A stretch of 64,000 bases of DNA from Aquabacter cavernae. Its GTDB lineage: Bacteria; Pseudomonadota; Alphaproteobacteria; Rhizobiales; Xanthobacteraceae. Positions within the stretch are counted from its first letter, which is position 1, and each line of letters starts with the position of its first letter. The stretch is from assembly GCF_003993795.1 (NCBI RefSeq), contig NZ_RWKV01000008.1, forward strand, positions 372,001 to 436,000. The letters run 5' to 3'. Positions 821 to 6,747 of the stretch are shown here, piece by piece. The notes under the pieces are model-generated. The model saw nothing but the letters and a program-made list of their open reading frames with translations, searched no databases and was not told where the DNA came from. The translations under genes and the position numbers were made by a program.

Positions 821-1618
821 TCAGGTGAGGTCCGAGAGGTAATGGGCCTGGTGCGTCAGGCATAGGCTGACGCGCCACTCCACCGGCACCTGGTCCAGCG
901 AGAAGCCGAGCCGGTCGATGAGCAGAGCGGGCGTGCCGGGCGCAACGCCGAGGGCGGCCGCATCATCGGCGGGCGCGGCGACGGCCTTCAGCTTCTCCCG
1001 CGCCCGGGCCACGGTGATGCCGTAGCGCGCGGAATAGAGGCCGTAGAGATTGTTGGGAATTTCCATGTCGGTGAGGCCCGGGAACAGGGCCTCCGGCAGG
1101 GAGAGGGTCTCCACCAGCAAAGGCGCCCCGTCCAGAAGGCGCACGCGGCGGATGCGCACCACCCGGCTGCCCCGCACCAGATCCAGCGCCGCGCATTCCG
1201 CCGCGCTCGCCTTGGCCTTGCCGATGGACAGGACACGGCTGTCGGGAAAGCGCCGCACCCCGTCATTGGGCACCAGTTTGAAGAATTGGAAGAGGATGCG
1301 GTCCTCGTCGTGCCGCGCCACGAAGGTGCCGCGCCCCTGGCGGCGCACCACCAGATTCTCGGCCGCCATCTCGTCCAGCGCCTTGCGCACGGTGCCCTGG
1401 CTCACCCCCAGCTCGGCGGCGAGCTGCATCTCGCTGGGCAAGGGTTCGCCGGGCGCCCAGACGCCGTCCACCATGCGGCGGATGAGCGTGTCGCGCACCT
1501 GGCGATAGAGCGGCTTCATGCCGAGCCCGTCGCCGTCCGGCGCGGTGCCGGCCATGGTCCGGGACTGGTCGCCCCCGCTGATGCCCGCCTTGCCCACGCC
1601 AACGCTTCCCCTTCGCAC
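821..1618 (-). CDS. GntR-family (HutC-type) transcriptional regulator of the sulfolactate island
   Basis: A 265-residue frame. The N-terminal winged helix-turn-helix has the GntR signature (PLYRQVRDTLIRRMVDGVW, PGEPLPSEMQLAAELGVSQG, TVRKALDEMAAENLVVRRQG; about residues 36-98). A UTRA-type ligand domain follows (about 120-260), so it belongs to the HutC/FarR subfamily. The start is uncertain: 1618 is a GTG with no good ribosome site, and later in-frame GTG or ATG codons (residues 8, 22, 34) are possible. It is transcribed divergently from slcC. The shared motif at 1692-1715 and 5626-5649 makes it the probable repressor of the sulfolactate genes, with a C3-sulfonate as likely effector. That link is inference. 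Confidence 0.9.
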   Translation of the reverse strand: MRRGSVGVGKAGISGGDQSRTMAGTAPDGDGLGMKPLYRQVRDTLIRRMVDGVWAPGEPLPSEMQLAAELGVSQGTVRKALDEMAAENLVVRRQGRGTFVARHDEDRILFQFFKLVPNDGVRRFPDSRVLSIGKAKASAAECAALDLVRGSRVVRIRRVRLLDGAPLLVETLSLPEALFPGLTDMEIPNNLYGLYSARYGITVARAREKLKAVAAPADDAAALGVAPGTPALLIDRLGFSLDQVPVEWRVSLCLTHQAHYLSDLT

Positions 1619-1691: not shown

Positions 1692-1715
1692 GGTCTTATA
1701 TCTTATATATGATAG
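1692..1715. promoter_or_regulatory. Candidate GntR operator, copy A (regulator/slcC intergenic)
   Basis: Between the GntR gene and slcC lies an AT-rich element of the form GTCTT-N-TAT-N6-TATGATAG, with an imperfect palindrome TATC-N8-GATA inside it (1700-1715 region). The same spaced words occur at 5626-5649 in the suyA/tctC divergent promoter and stand out from the GC-rich surroundings. HutC-type regulators usually bind such short AT-rich palindromes. Binding by the adjacent regulator is inferred. Confidence 0.55.
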
Positions 1716-1791
1716 CAGAGCAAAGAAGCGGCGTGAGGCGCCCGTGGGCGGAACAGCCCCGGCGGCACGGCCGCAGGATCCGGGGAGTAGG

Positions 1792-2724
1792 ATGCCTGAT
1801 ATTGTCGTAACCGAGTTCATGGACGAAGCCGCCCTCGATGTGCTGCGGGCGGACTATGACCTTGTCTATGATCCCACCCTCGTGGACAAGCCGGAAGCCC
1901 TGGCGGCCCTGCTGCCCGGCGTGCGCGGCCTCATCGTGCGCAACCGCACCCAGGTGCGCGGCGCGGTGCTGGAAGCGGGCACGCAGCTCCAGGTGGTCGG
2001 CCGCCTCGGCGTCGGCCTCGACAATATCGACGTTGATGCCTGCCGCGCGCGCGGCATTGAGGTGTGCCCCGCCACCGGTGCCAATGACGTGTCCGTGGCC
2101 GAATATGTGGTGTGCGGCGTCATGATGATGCTGCGCGGCGCCTATTTCGCCACCGCCGAGGTGGCCGCCGGCGCCTGGCCGCGCACCCGCCTCATGGGCC
2201 GCGAGGCCATGGGCGCGACTTTGGGCCTCGTGGGCTTCGGCTCCATCGCCCGCGAGACCGCCCGCCGCGCCCGCGCGCTGGGCATGGAGATCGTCGCGTA
2301 CGATCCCTTCCTCCCCGACGACCACCCGGCCTTCGCCGCCCATGAGGCGCGCCCGGTTTCGCTCGACGCGCTGCTCGCGCAGTCCGACGCGGTGAGCCTG
2401 CATGTGCCGCTGACCGACGCCACGCGCAATCTGATCGATGCCGGCGCGCTGGCGGGCATGAAGTCCGACGCGGTGCTGGTGAATGCCGCGCGCGGTGGCG
2501 TGGTGGACGAGGCGGCGCTCGCCGAGGCCCTGAAGGCGGGCCGCATCGGCGGCGCCATGCTGGACGTGTTCGACCGCGAGCCGCTGCCCGGCGGCGGGCC
2601 GCTGATGGACGTGCCCAACCTCGTCCTCACCCCCCACATTGCGGGCGTGACGGTGGAATCCAACGTGCGCGTTTCCGGCGTCACCGCCGAGGCGGTCGCC
2701 CGCGTGCTGAAGGAGCGTGCCTGA
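1792..2724 (+). CDS. slcC: (S)-sulfolactate dehydrogenase-like D-2-hydroxyacid dehydrogenase
   Basis: A 310-residue NAD-dependent D-2-hydroxyacid dehydrogenase. It shows the Rossmann motif GLVGFGSIARE (about 145-155) and the catalytic triad in NAARGGVVDE (Arg234), DREPLP (Glu263) and LTPHIAG (His282). Family members use many 2-hydroxyacids. The call rests on the neighbours: comC overlaps its stop (TGATG) and suyAB lie beyond. In that setting SlcC oxidises (S)-sulfolactate to sulfopyruvate with NAD+, the first half of the racemising route known from Chromohalobacter. The ATG at 1792 follows GGGGAGTAGG and was preferred over 1744. Without context it could be called a phosphoglycerate dehydrogenase-like protein. 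Confidence 0.82.
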   Translation: MPDIVVTEFMDEAALDVLRADYDLVYDPTLVDKPEALAALLPGVRGLIVRNRTQVRGAVLEAGTQLQVVGRLGVGLDNIDVDACRARGIEVCPATGANDVSVAEYVVCGVMMMLRGAYFATAEVAAGAWPRTRLMGREAMGATLGLVGFGSIARETARRARALGMEIVAYDPFLPDDHPAFAAHEARPVSLDALLAQSDAVSLHVPLTDATRNLIDAGALAGMKSDAVLVNAARGGVVDEAALAEALKAGRIGGAMLDVFDREPLPGGGPLMDVPNLVLTPHIAGVTVESNVRVSGVTAEAVARVLKERA

Positions 2725-3728
2725 TGCCCGTGACCCTCACTTTGGATGACGCGCGGGATCTCGCGCGCGCCGCGCTGATGGCGGCGGGCACCTCGCCTGA
2801 GAATGCCGCCATCACCGCCGCTGCCCTGGTGGCGGCGGATGCGGATGGCATTGCCAGCCACGGCCTTTCGCGCCTGCCCGCTTATGCGGACCAGGTGGCG
2901 ACCGGCAAGGTGCAGGGCAACGCGGTGCCCGCGCTGGACTGGACCGCCACTGCCACCCTGCGGGTGAATGCCGGCTGCGGCTTCGCCTTCCCGGCCGTGG
3001 CGGCGGGCCTTGCCGCCGCTGCCGAGCGGGTGCGCGAGACCGGCATCGTGGGTGTCGGTGTTTATGCCTCCCACCATGCGGGCGCCATGGGCCATCATGT
3101 GGAATGGCTGGCGGAGCGGGGCCTTGCGGGCATCGCCTTCACCAATTCTCCGTCCGCCATCGCCCCCTGGGGCGGGTCGCAGGGCGTGTTCGGCACCAAT
3201 CCCGTGGCCTTCGCCGTGCCCCGCGCAGGCAGGCCGCCGCTGGTTATCGACGCCTCGCTGAGCAAGGTGGCGCGCGGCAAGATCATGGTGGCGGCCCAGC
3301 GCGGCCAGCCCATTCCCGACGACTGGGCGCTGGATGTGGACGGCAAGCCGACCACCGATGCCAAGGCGGCGCTGGCGGGCACCATGCTGCCGGTGGGTGA
3401 CGCCAAGGGTGCGGCCCTGGTGCTGATGGTGGAAATCCTCGCCGCCGCCCTCACGGGCGGGCAGTTCGGCTTCGAGGCTTCGTCCTTCTTCACGGCGGAC
3501 GGACCGTCTCCGGCCATCGGCCATCTGTTCCTGGTGATGGACCCGGTCCGGCTTGGGGGCGACCAGTTCCCGGCCCGTCTCGAAACCCTGCTGGGTGCGA
3601 TCCTTTCCCAGGAGGGCACCCGCCTTCCCGGCGACCGGCGCATCGCGGCGCGCACCAAGGCGGCCGGGGAGGGGATCAGCATTCCCGACGATCTCGCCGC
3701 GGACCTTCGCCGCCGGGCGGGCGTCTGA
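2724..3728 (+). CDS. comC: (R)-sulfolactate dehydrogenase (malate/L-lactate dehydrogenase family)
   Basis: A 334-residue member of the Ldh_2 (YlbC/ComC/MDH) family. Hallmarks are DGIASHGLSRLPAY (His46), the ASHHAGAMGHH segment (His117-118), GGSQGVFGTNPVAFAVP, and the C-terminal DQFPARLETL and RLPGDRR blocks. The ATG overlaps the slcC stop, so the two are translationally coupled. In the sulfolactate pathway ComC reduces sulfopyruvate to (R)-sulfolactate, the isomer used by SuyAB. The family name comes from coenzyme M synthesis in methanogens, which is not implied here. A strong terminator at 3759-3790 closes the transcript. Confidence 0.85.
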   Translation: MPVTLTLDDARDLARAALMAAGTSPENAAITAAALVAADADGIASHGLSRLPAYADQVATGKVQGNAVPALDWTATATLRVNAGCGFAFPAVAAGLAAAAERVRETGIVGVGVYASHHAGAMGHHVEWLAERGLAGIAFTNSPSAIAPWGGSQGVFGTNPVAFAVPRAGRPPLVIDASLSKVARGKIMVAAQRGQPIPDDWALDVDGKPTTDAKAALAGTMLPVGDAKGAALVLMVEILAAALTGGQFGFEASSFFTADGPSPAIGHLFLVMDPVRLGGDQFPARLETLLGAILSQEGTRLPGDRRIAARTKAAGEGISIPDDLAADLRRRAGV

Positions 3729-3758
3729 CGCGCTGCCATCGCATTTCGCATATCGAAT

Positions 3759-3790
3759 CACCTGCGCGCCCGGCGGGCAGGTGTTTTTTT
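3759..3790 (+). terminator. Rho-independent terminator of slcC-comC
   Basis: A perfect 7-bp stem CACCTGC/GCAGGTG (3759-3765 with 3777-3783) is followed at once by seven T residues. It lies 31 bases after the comC stop. Confidence 0.85.
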
Positions 3791-3850
3791 ACGGGTCAAT
3801 AGCCGTGAGAAAATTTTTATATTGCCGGCAAATTAAACTGCGTTTCCCTT

Positions 3851-3878
3851 AAAAAAGCGGCGTCCCGAGGGACGCCGC
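3851..3878 (-). terminator. Rho-independent terminator of suyA-suyB (leftward)
   Basis: A 10-bp perfect stem GCGGCGTCCC/GGGACGCCGC (3857-3878) borders a run of six A on the + strand (3851-3856), so the leftward transcript ends in a U-run. A second strong hairpin without a U-run (11-bp stem, 3972-3982 with 3992-4002) lies between it and the suyB stop and may protect the 3' end. Confidence 0.85.
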
Positions 3879-4009
3879 AGTTGGTCACAACATCGTTCGC
3901 GGGGTGCTACCATAACCCGCGTGCTGCTCAGGAGCGGCGCGCCAGGGCAGGGCGCCGACCGATGCCTCTTTCCATCGGCCCGATCATGGACCGGGCCGAT
4001 GGGCTCAAT

Positions 4010-5290
4010 TCAGGCGCTGCGATAGAGCTTGGTCATCACGAACTCGCGGTGGCCGAGGGATTCAGCCGCCGTGAGCCGGCCGTTGGCGGTGCGGATGATC
4101 ATGTCGATCAGCGCGTCGCCGGCCTGCGGGATGGTCATGTCGCGGCGCAGCACGCCGGAAACGTCCACGTCGATATGCTCGCCCATGGTGCGGATCGTGC
4201 GGGGATTGCCCGTGATCTTGATGACCGGAACGATGGGGTTGCCGATCACGTTGCCCTGCCCGGTGGGGAAGGTGTGGATCACGTAGCCCGCCGCCGCCAT
4301 CAGGGTCACGCACTCGGCAGCCGCCGAGGAGGTGTCCATGTAATAGAGGCCGGGACCCTTCGCAGGGGCTTCAGCCGCATCCAGGGCGTCGATGAACTTG
4401 CACTCGCGGCCGATCTTTTCGAGATTGCCGAGGGCCTTTTCCTCGATGGTGGTGAGACCGCCGACAATATTGCCCTTGGTGGGCTGGCTGTCGGAGAGGT
4501 CGTTGGTCTTGTGGGCCTCGATCACGTCGTCCTGGTAGGACTTCCAGATCTTGTACCACTTCTCCGCCACTTCCGGAGACGCAGCCCGCTCCTTGCAGAG
4601 ATGCTCGGCGCCGGTGATCTCGGAGGTCTCGCCGAACACGCCGTAGATGCCGTGCGGGATCAGCTTGTCATACATGTTGCCCACGGTGGGGCAGGAGGAG
4701 AGGCCCGTGGTGGTGTCGCTCTCGCCGCACTTGGTGGAGACCCACAGCTCGGAAATGGAGCAGGTCTCGCGCGGCAGCTCGGTCGCCCACTGCACGAAGC
4801 GCTTGGCCTGGTAGGAGGCCTTGGCGATGGTGGCGATGTCGCCATGGCCTTCGATGCCGAAGCCCACAACCGGCTTGCCGGTCTTGGCGATGCCCTCGAC
4901 CACGGTGTTGGTCCACTGGTCCTCAATGCCGATCACCACCACGGCGGCGACGTTCGGGTTCGAGCCGATGCCGATCAGGGTGCGGAAGTGGAGGTCCAGG
5001 TCCGCGCCGAACTGGAGGCGGCCATAAGCGTGGGGGAGGGCCTGCGTGCCCTTCACGTTATTGGCCACGGCCTCGCAGGCGGCGTTGGACAGGTCGTCGA
5101 GCGGCAGCAGGACGACGAGGTTGCGCACGCCGACGCGGCCATTCTCACGGCGCCAGCCGGTGAAGGTGGCGTTCTTGTAGTCGATGGAGGCGAGCTCGGT
5201 GGGGGTCGCCGTCGTCACCATCTGGTCGGGCGCGCCGCCGTTGAACGGGTTCTGTGCGGTCTGGGCATGGAACATTGCGTTTTCGGACAT
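4010..5290 (-). CDS. suyB: (R)-sulfolactate sulfo-lyase, beta (large) subunit
   Basis: A 426-residue protein of the UxaA/altronate-dehydratase C-terminal (SAF-associated) family, with [45 protein letters not shown] and [20 protein letters not shown]. SuyAB removes sulfite from (R)-sulfolactate to give pyruvate. The start at 5290 ([14 protein letters not shown]) follows GGTGAGGCCGAC and leaves 7 bases after suyA; the longer frame to 5371 would overlap suyA. Altronate and galactarate dehydratases are paralogues, but the split small subunit with its [10 protein letters not shown] tail, together with slcC and comC, argues for the sulfo-lyase. It is the last gene of a leftward two-gene operon. Confidence 0.88.
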
Positions 5291-5297
5291 GTCGGCC

Positions 5298-5585
5298 TCA
5301 CCAGCGCTTCGTCTTGGCATTGTGGACGTGGAGATGCTCGCCCTTGGCGATATCCGCCTTCGCGACGCCAATGTCCTGGCCGTATTTCCAGATGGTGTCG
5401 CCGGCCTTGATATCCACCAGCGCCACCTTGTGGCCGATCGGAACGTCCATCTTCGAGGTGAGGTGGAAGGCCGAATTGTCGTGGGTGATCACGCAGAGCA
5501 TGTCGGTCCCGGCCTTCAGGCCCTCAACCACCACCACTCCGACCGTATCTTTTTTCTCGTGAACCAATAGGTGCGGCGCACTCAC
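5298..5585 (-). CDS. suyA: (R)-sulfolactate sulfo-lyase, alpha (small) subunit
   Basis: A 95-residue SAF-domain protein containing [39 protein letters not shown] and the ending [10 protein letters not shown], which matches the family of small subunits of SuyAB and of split altronate-type lyases. The start is set at a GTG (5585), preceded by AGGAGGCAAGC, an excellent ribosome site; the in-frame ATG further up has none. It is transcribed first, with suyB 7 bases behind. The divergent promoter region toward the TctC gene holds operator copy B. Confidence 0.88.
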
Positions 5586-5625
5586 GCTTGCCTCCTCGCC
5601 TCTTCCGGCTTGCCGTTTCGACACA

Positions 5626-5649
5626 AGTCTTCTATAAGACGTATGATAG
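5626..5649. promoter_or_regulatory. Candidate GntR operator, copy B (suyA/tctC intergenic)
   Basis: This element repeats the motif at 1692-1715: GTCTT, then TAT after one base, then TATGATAG at the same spacing (16 of 24 positions identical). Within it GTCTT-N4-AAGAC forms an inverted repeat (5627-5640). It lies 41 bases upstream of the suyA start and 127 bases upstream of the tctC start, so a bound regulator could control both directions. Confidence 0.55.
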
Positions 5650-5775: not shown

Positions 5776-6747
5776 ATGGTGCGTTTGATGAAATGGGTGG
5801 CCGCCGGTATTTTCGGCCTCACCATGGGCGTGAGCGGGGCGTCCGCGCAGGGCTATCCCACCCGCCCGATCACTTTGATCGTTCCTTATTCCGCCGGCGG
5901 CCCGAGCGACGCCATTGCCCGGCTGCTCGGCCAGAGCATGTCGGCCACCCTGGGCCAGCAACTGGTGATCGAGCCGGTGGTCGGCGCGGGCGGCACCACG
6001 GGCGCGGGGCGCCTCGCAAAGTCCGCCCCGGACGGCTACACCCTTCTGATCCACCACGTTGCCCTGGCCGCGAGCGCCTCGCTCTATGCGAGCCTCGCCT
6101 ATGACACCAACAAGGCGTTCGAGACCATCGGCCTGATCAATTACGGCCCGATGGTGCTGCTCTCCAAGAAGGACTACGGGGCGGCCAACATCGCCGAGCT
6201 GATCGCCAAGGTGAAGGCGGACGGCACCAAGACCACCATTGCCCATGCCGGTGTCGGCTCCAATTCCTATCTCTGCGCCCAGCTGCTCCAGAAGGCGATG
6301 GACGTGAAGATGACGGACGTGGGCTATCGCGGCACCGGCCCGGCCATGAACGACCTCATGGGCGGCCAGGTTGACCTTCTGTGCGAGCAGTCCACCACCG
6401 CGGTTCCGCAGATCAAGGGCGGCACCGTGAAGCCGTTCGCCGTGACCTCCGCCAAGCGGATGGAGATCCTCAAGGACCTGCCGACGCTGCAGGAAGCGGG
6501 CCTGAAGGATTTCGACTTCGTCATCTGGCACGGCCTCTACGCGCCCAAGGGCACGCCGGCCGACATCGTGACCAAGCTGAACGGCGCCCTCCAGAAGGCG
6601 CTGGAGGATCCCACCATCCAGTCGCGCTTCGCCGACGTGGGCACCAGCGTGTTCCCGCCCGCCGATCGCGGCCCCGATGTGCATCTCAAGATGTTCGAGA
6701 AGGAAATCGGCATCTGGAAGACGGTCATCGACAAGCCGGTTCAGTGA
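5776..6747 (+). CDS. TctC/Bug-family periplasmic solute-binding protein, probably for sulfolactate
   Basis: A 323-residue protein with a signal peptide (MVRLMKWVAAGIFGLTMGVS, cleavage near ASA-QG) and the Bug/TctC fold motifs YPTRPITLIVPYSAGGPSD, GAGGTTGAGRLAKSAPDGYT, GGTVKPFAVTSAKR and DFVIWHGLYAPKGTP. Such proteins deliver carboxylates to tripartite tricarboxylate transporters. The start at 5776 follows GAGGAGGAAGCTG. Its position divergent from suyAB and beside copy B of the operator suggests it binds sulfolactate, as SlcH does in other bacteria. No TctA or TctB membrane partner is present here, so it must use membrane genes elsewhere or act as a sensor. Confidence 0.85.
   Translation: MVRLMKWVAAGIFGLTMGVSGASAQGYPTRPITLIVPYSAGGPSDAIARLLGQSMSATLGQQLVIEPVVGAGGTTGAGRLAKSAPDGYTLLIHHVALAASASLYASLAYDTNKAFETIGLINYGPMVLLSKKDYGAANIAELIAKVKADGTKTTIAHAGVGSNSYLCAQLLQKAMDVKMTDVGYRGTGPAMNDLMGGQVDLLCEQSTTAVPQIKGGTVKPFAVTSAKRMEILKDLPTLQEAGLKDFDFVIWHGLYAPKGTPADIVTKLNGALQKALEDPTIQSRFADVGTSVFPPADRGPDVHLKMFEKEIGIWKTVIDKPVQ

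Follow-up and report, generated by a model that had tools for sequence, protein, structure and literature searches.

Two putative SdhR-type operators of a GntR/UTRA regulator in a sulfolactate gene island of Aquabacter cavernae

The GntR-family regulator SdhR, a member of the HutC subfamily, has been assigned the motif TCTTATGTCTTATATAAGACATAAGA by Suvorova et al. 2015 (PMC4494728), where extra half-sites 7–12 nt from the centre are described for the family. According to the same study, the typical HutC operator is an AT-rich palindrome with GT/AC 4 nt apart, and SdhR is listed as an exception to this spacing. For the sulfolactate cluster of Chromohalobacter, a regulator gene, suyR, that is tied to suyAB/slcC/comC is named in PMC6018796. 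Here we analysed a stretch of 64,000 nucleotides from Aquabacter cavernae (contig NZ_RWKV01000008.1, positions 372,001 to 436,000; the window), in which the gene of a GntR/UTRA regulator likewise lies together with suyAB, slcC and comC, and in which two short sites are found in the spacers between the regulator gene and slcC and between suyA and tctC (Table 1). From sequence comparison we consider it very likely that both sites are operators of this regulator, through which it would jointly repress the pathway genes.

The conserved operator consists of the 12-bp palindrome TCTTATATAAGA and an extra half-site 7 bp upstream of it. If the two sites of the window are read toward slcC and toward suyA, respectively, these parts follow in identical order and 14 of 20 positions agree, with the palindromes O1 and O2 being located approximately 91 bp before the slcC start and 54 bp before the suyA start. 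The core palindrome, the outer half-sites at a distance of 7 bp, the recognition helix SQGTVRK and the GntR plus UTRA homology are shared with SdhR, whereas the neighbours differ, as SdhR adjoins mdh and sdhC and the window regulator adjoins slcC-comC and suyAB-tctC. With the typical HutC operator the sites share the AT-rich palindrome, but GT and AC are separated by 10 nt in them (GTCTTATATAAGAC). The operator is not peculiar to the sulfolactate system but is, judged by the motif described, of the SdhR type. A genome-wide motif search, as proposed in the initial annotation of this DNA, found the 14-mer RTCTTATANWWGAY and the three-half-site 20-mer TCWTAYRTCTTATANWWGAY without mismatch solely at the two sites of the island, and no third operator can therefore be predicted with confidence in this genome from these two scans. 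A one-mismatch palindrome is also present at C17:358693, and other 14-mer matches with one mismatch as well as matches with three mismatches exist. As the number of 14-mer matches with two mismatches (82+60) was close to that of the reversed control (75+66), no further regulon member was accepted from the same genome.

The sites had been noticed as two elements, GGTCTTATATCTTATATATGATAG at 1692–1715 and AGTCTTCTATAAGACGTATGATAG at 5626–5649, with a reported identity of 16 of 24 positions; the coordinates and both spacers are correct, and the real figure is 17 of 24. The pattern GTCTTNTATNNNANNTATGATAG, which was built post hoc, matches only these two elements in the window when up to three mismatches are allowed (shuffle mean 0.01), and in the 4.5-Mb genome it has two exact matches and one with three mismatches. 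Taken alone, the likeness of the two elements to each other is weak evidence and not significant, as block-shuffled spacers (20-bp blocks) gave a best 24-mer match of at least 17 in 21 of 300 trials, and the comparison with relatives was therefore used as the test. From a SuyB search we took 80 loci, the best 80 of 586, and scanned 300 bp upstream of suyA for TCTTATATAAGA at 11 or 12 of 12 positions, using single-base shuffles as control. The palindrome was present in 74 of the 80 loci but in only 3 of 16000 shuffled regions; unlike the pairwise likeness, the inner palindrome is well beyond chance. The suyA-upstream side also holds a third, degenerate half-site, TCWTA, beginning 7 bp ahead of the palindrome, with a mean match of 3.64 of 5 over 72 distinct footprints compared to 0.85–2.22 at other offsets and 2.06 at the mirror position.

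The regulator was found in 31 of 149 genomes of the family (E<=1e-40), and three main gene orders occur among the relatives. In the first, slcC-comC is divergent from the regulator and suyAB lies apart (the window, Xanthobacter and allies); in the second, it is suyA that diverges from the regulator (Bosea and others); in the third, suyAB, slcC, comC and the regulator are all co-directional (most Methylobacterium). In the regulator-slcC spacer of the first layout, nine of ten distinct loci (the window itself, L004, L005, L007–L010, L089 and L090) carry the palindrome at 11/12 or better and L006 reaches 10/12; L084–L087, L091 and L092 resemble copies of these loci and were left uncounted. Upstream of slcC in the other layouts no such palindrome was found (best 8/12), as expected because slcC is internal to the operon there. 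Homologues of suyA, suyB, slcC and comC are thus all placed under one motif.

Across these gene orders the motif also follows the regulator. For 69 of the 80 loci, a homologue of the regulator was found inside the locus (E<=1e-15). Five of the remaining eleven carry the palindrome (L011, L013, L014, L019, L040), and their genomes encode the regulator at another place. In the genomes of the six palindrome-free loci (L047, L052, L055, L073, L074, L077) no regulator was detected at E<=1e-25. All 74 palindrome-bearing genomes therefore hold the regulator, and it was detected in none of the six palindrome-free ones (Fisher 3e-9, relatedness ignored); every suyA locus in whose genome the regulator was found carries the motif (74 of 74), which had been suggested as a check on orthologous islands. 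The initial proposal of a single regulon under the GntR protein is supported at this level. Ownership of the sites by another regulator appears extremely improbable: nothing direct speaks for it, and although the GntR gene lies outside the retrieved stretch in the five loci named above, all five genomes hold a homologue and the palindromes adjoin homologues of the GntR gene in other contexts as well.

Alternatively, the shared letters could reflect nothing more than a resemblance of −10 elements in two AT-rich spacers that have no regulator in common. Both plus strands contain TATGAT, which in the direction of slcC and tctC is readable as a −10-like hexamer; a scan that paired it with a TTGACA-like hexamer at 16–18 nt gave two hits in these directions with 0.5 expected, and the shuffled spacers reaching 17/24 agree with this explanation too. 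We regard it as very improbable, as the palindrome and not TATGATAG is conserved and tracks the regulator. The register in which the elements had first been aligned as a protein footprint had to be given up. It compared plus strands of oppositely oriented operators, so that one operator was read backwards and outer half-sites were aligned. At site 2 TATGATAG drifts among relatives and the palindrome is kept: on the minus strand CTATCATACG is replaced by CTATCACACG, CTATCCTATA and ATGTAGTATA, and TCTTATANAAGA is unchanged.

To place the window regulator within its subfamily, we extended the search to the phylum, where a homologue was found in 40 of 398 genomes (E<=1e-40). Among 29 further homologue loci (L150–L178) the palindrome is present at 11 or 12 of 12 positions in 26, with L157 and L163 reaching 10 and L153 reaching 7. 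Twenty of the 29 adjoin both mdh and sdhC homologues (Pfam was run on examples), and a Burkholderia record of a plasmid collection likewise shows the order mdh-regulator-sdhC together with the palindrome. When 113 thinned homologues were placed in a tree, the 20 rows linked to mdh/sdh made up one side of a branch (100/99), with the window protein being outside. Its identification as SdhR was rejected on this position and on gene context, and with the operator and helix in common but a separate clade, the window protein is therefore predicted to work like SdhR at the DNA, yet is not SdhR. The suy-linked regulators as one clade were not supported either, with 11 label changes of which at least six are forced by well-supported branches; the suy label was set by locus content, and some paralogues in suy loci inflate these changes. 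With SdhR as query against 385 genomes of the window's class, three matches at E<=1e-50 were obtained, namely the window regulator, L244 and L246, none of them in an sdh context, and no SdhR of the strength seen in Burkholderiales was found among these genomes. Two SQGT-type homologues with TCTTGTATAAGA sites stand beside other genes, a GFO_IDH_MocA oxidoreductase in L152 and a PF03601 membrane protein in L154.

Alphaproteobacterial sulfolactate regulators share helix and operator with SdhR (SQGTVRK, TCTTATATAAGA). Of the homologues with an SQGT helix, 67 of 92 have the palindrome at 11/12 or better within 600 bp, compared to 5 of 21 with a different helix; among the remaining 25 of SQGT type, 18 carry it farther off in the locus. 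The Burkholderiales, in which SuyB was detected (E<=1e-140) in 70 of 399 genomes and 30 loci were examined, differ. None of the 30 shows TCTTATATAAGA at 11 or better upstream of suyA, and 29 of them carry within 350 bp a TCATATATATGA-like site of at least 9/12 (19 at 11–12, four at 10, six at 9; none in L221). The loci used to derive the consensus (L196, L197, L205) are counted again in this set of 30. In 3000 shuffled controls a score of 9 was reached 112 times, 10 nine times and 11 never. The sulfolactate regulators of these loci lack the helix Gln in 19 of 19 cases with the regulator in view and read [SA][IVM]GT[LIV]R. Of the 30 suyB-bearing Burkholderiales genomes, 18 also encode SdhR (E<=1e-60), with the helix SQGTVRK in 17 of 18 and the TCTT palindrome at 11/12 or better in 17 of 18. 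The exception is G840 (L221, L241), with the SdhR helix SLGTARR and a 10/12 site, and its suyA (L221) is the one showing no site. Helix and operator therefore change together in Burkholderiales. One tentative reading, which we hold somewhat less probable than its opposite, is that regulators of one GntR subfamily share a recognition code that has been split in one lineage, which would keep two regulons apart. The avoidance of cross-talk as driver of this split is a hypothesis confounded by lineage, because 12 of 12 genomes without detected SdhR also carry the TCAT-type site. Beside a tctC-like gene, L104 and L110 hold ALGTMRK paralogues with a differing palindrome-like stretch upstream (in L104, TCCTCTAGAGGA), which may represent a third type of operator.

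Several observations weigh against the assignment of the sites to this regulator, in addition to the shuffled spacers mentioned above. All six motif-free genomes are metagenome-assembled and may be incomplete, and Methylobacterium-type loci have no site before the regulator gene itself. Seven of the 92 SQGT-helix homologues lack an 11/12 palindrome in the retrieved stretch, these stretches being short, and a nearby palindrome was also seen for five of the 21 homologues whose helix differs. The alphaproteobacterial L244 and L246 carry SQGTVRK and reach at best 8/12 in a short stretch that shows neither suy nor sdh genes.

Most likely, the two sites act by promoter occlusion that is relieved by a pathway compound. 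A dimer of the regulator would read the palindrome, and the third half-site 7 bp upstream probably aids the binding of a further subunit. Bound at O1, the regulator would sit on two divergent promoters, its own and that of slcC-comC, and at O2 on those of suyAB and tctC, so that these promoters would be blocked without substrate. Sulfolactate or sulfopyruvate bound in the UTRA domain may release the regulator, and uptake, racemisation and desulfonation would then be switched on together. The same regulator might instead bind both sites mainly as an activator, for which the distances of O1 and O2 from the slcC and suyA starts and the extra half-site on the suyA-upstream side could be quoted; these features do not separate activation from repression. 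The palindromes overlap or touch the −10-like TATGAT hexamers, and members of the HutC subfamily are mostly repressors, which makes activation unlikely in our view.

The enzyme genes under the predicted control are listed in Table 1. A search of the island enzymes against curated models gave none above its cut-off, and the comC-like protein reached 203.7 bits against NF040650 (L-sulfolactate dehydrogenase), below the cut-off of 500. The genes comC and suyB converge, and terminator-like stems are located between their ends at 3857–3878 (minus) and 3783–3814 (plus). TauE- and TctC-type genes lie across the suyA spacer in relatives, and TauE/SafE and Tct genes are annotated near the regulator on two plasmids; these transporter genes support sulfonate use. 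Further palindromes at 11/12 were seen just after or beside the regulator at L008:12378, L138:2315 and L139:1562. The open reading frames on their far side have matches in ABC transporter families (BPD_transp_1 at L008:13422-14312, and ABC_tran for both L138 and L139), and the regulon may therefore include an ABC importer. In a Chelatococcus genome, at L034:542 (the same place as L140), the regulator and an 11/12 palindrome adjoin a Fer2_3/Fer4 gene (L034:853-1602) with domains as in succinate dehydrogenase iron-sulfur subunits, and a fumarase-type gene is nearby.

Table 1: Predicted operator parts and genes of the sulfolactate island, with positions in the window.
Feature	Position	Strand	Remarks
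Operator palindrome O1 (putative)	1701..1712	+	TCTTATATATGA, 11/12 to TCTTATATAAGA; regulator-slcC spacer
Operator palindrome O2 (putative)	5628..5639	-	TCTTATAGAAGA on minus strand, 11/12; suyA-tctC spacer
Extra half-site TCTTATA	1694..1700	+	7 bp upstream of O1, on the side away from slcC; three-half-site pattern without mismatch
Extra half-site TCATACG	5640..5646	-	7 bp upstream of O2, on the side away from suyA; three-half-site pattern
GntR/UTRA (HutC-subfamily) regulator	821..1618	-	helix SQGTVRK; matches above cut-off to PF00392 (76.9 bits) and PF07702 (119.6 bits); start codon uncertain
slcC-like D-2-hydroxyacid dehydrogenase	1792..2724	+	PF02826, PF00389; probable substrate from neighbouring genes
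comC-like Ldh_2 dehydrogenase	2724..3728	+	PF02615
suyB-like lyase subunit	4010..5290	-	PF04295, PF20629
suyA-like small subunit	5298..5585	-	PF08666 (SAF); GTG start taken at 5585
tctC-like substrate-binding protein	5776..6747	+	PF03401

In the literature searched, in which few subscription journals were covered, we found neither an operator of suyAB/slcC operons nor a description of such a regulon, and what is proposed here adds a new regulon to a regulator subfamily and an operator type that are both known. Sulfolactate occurs as an intermediate in the sulfonate branch of the sulfur cycle, and a defined operator makes its regulon predictable in new genomes. As this operator matches that of SdhR in one lineage, and in another both operator and helix are different, the two lineages offer a natural system for testing how related regulators avoid each other's sites.

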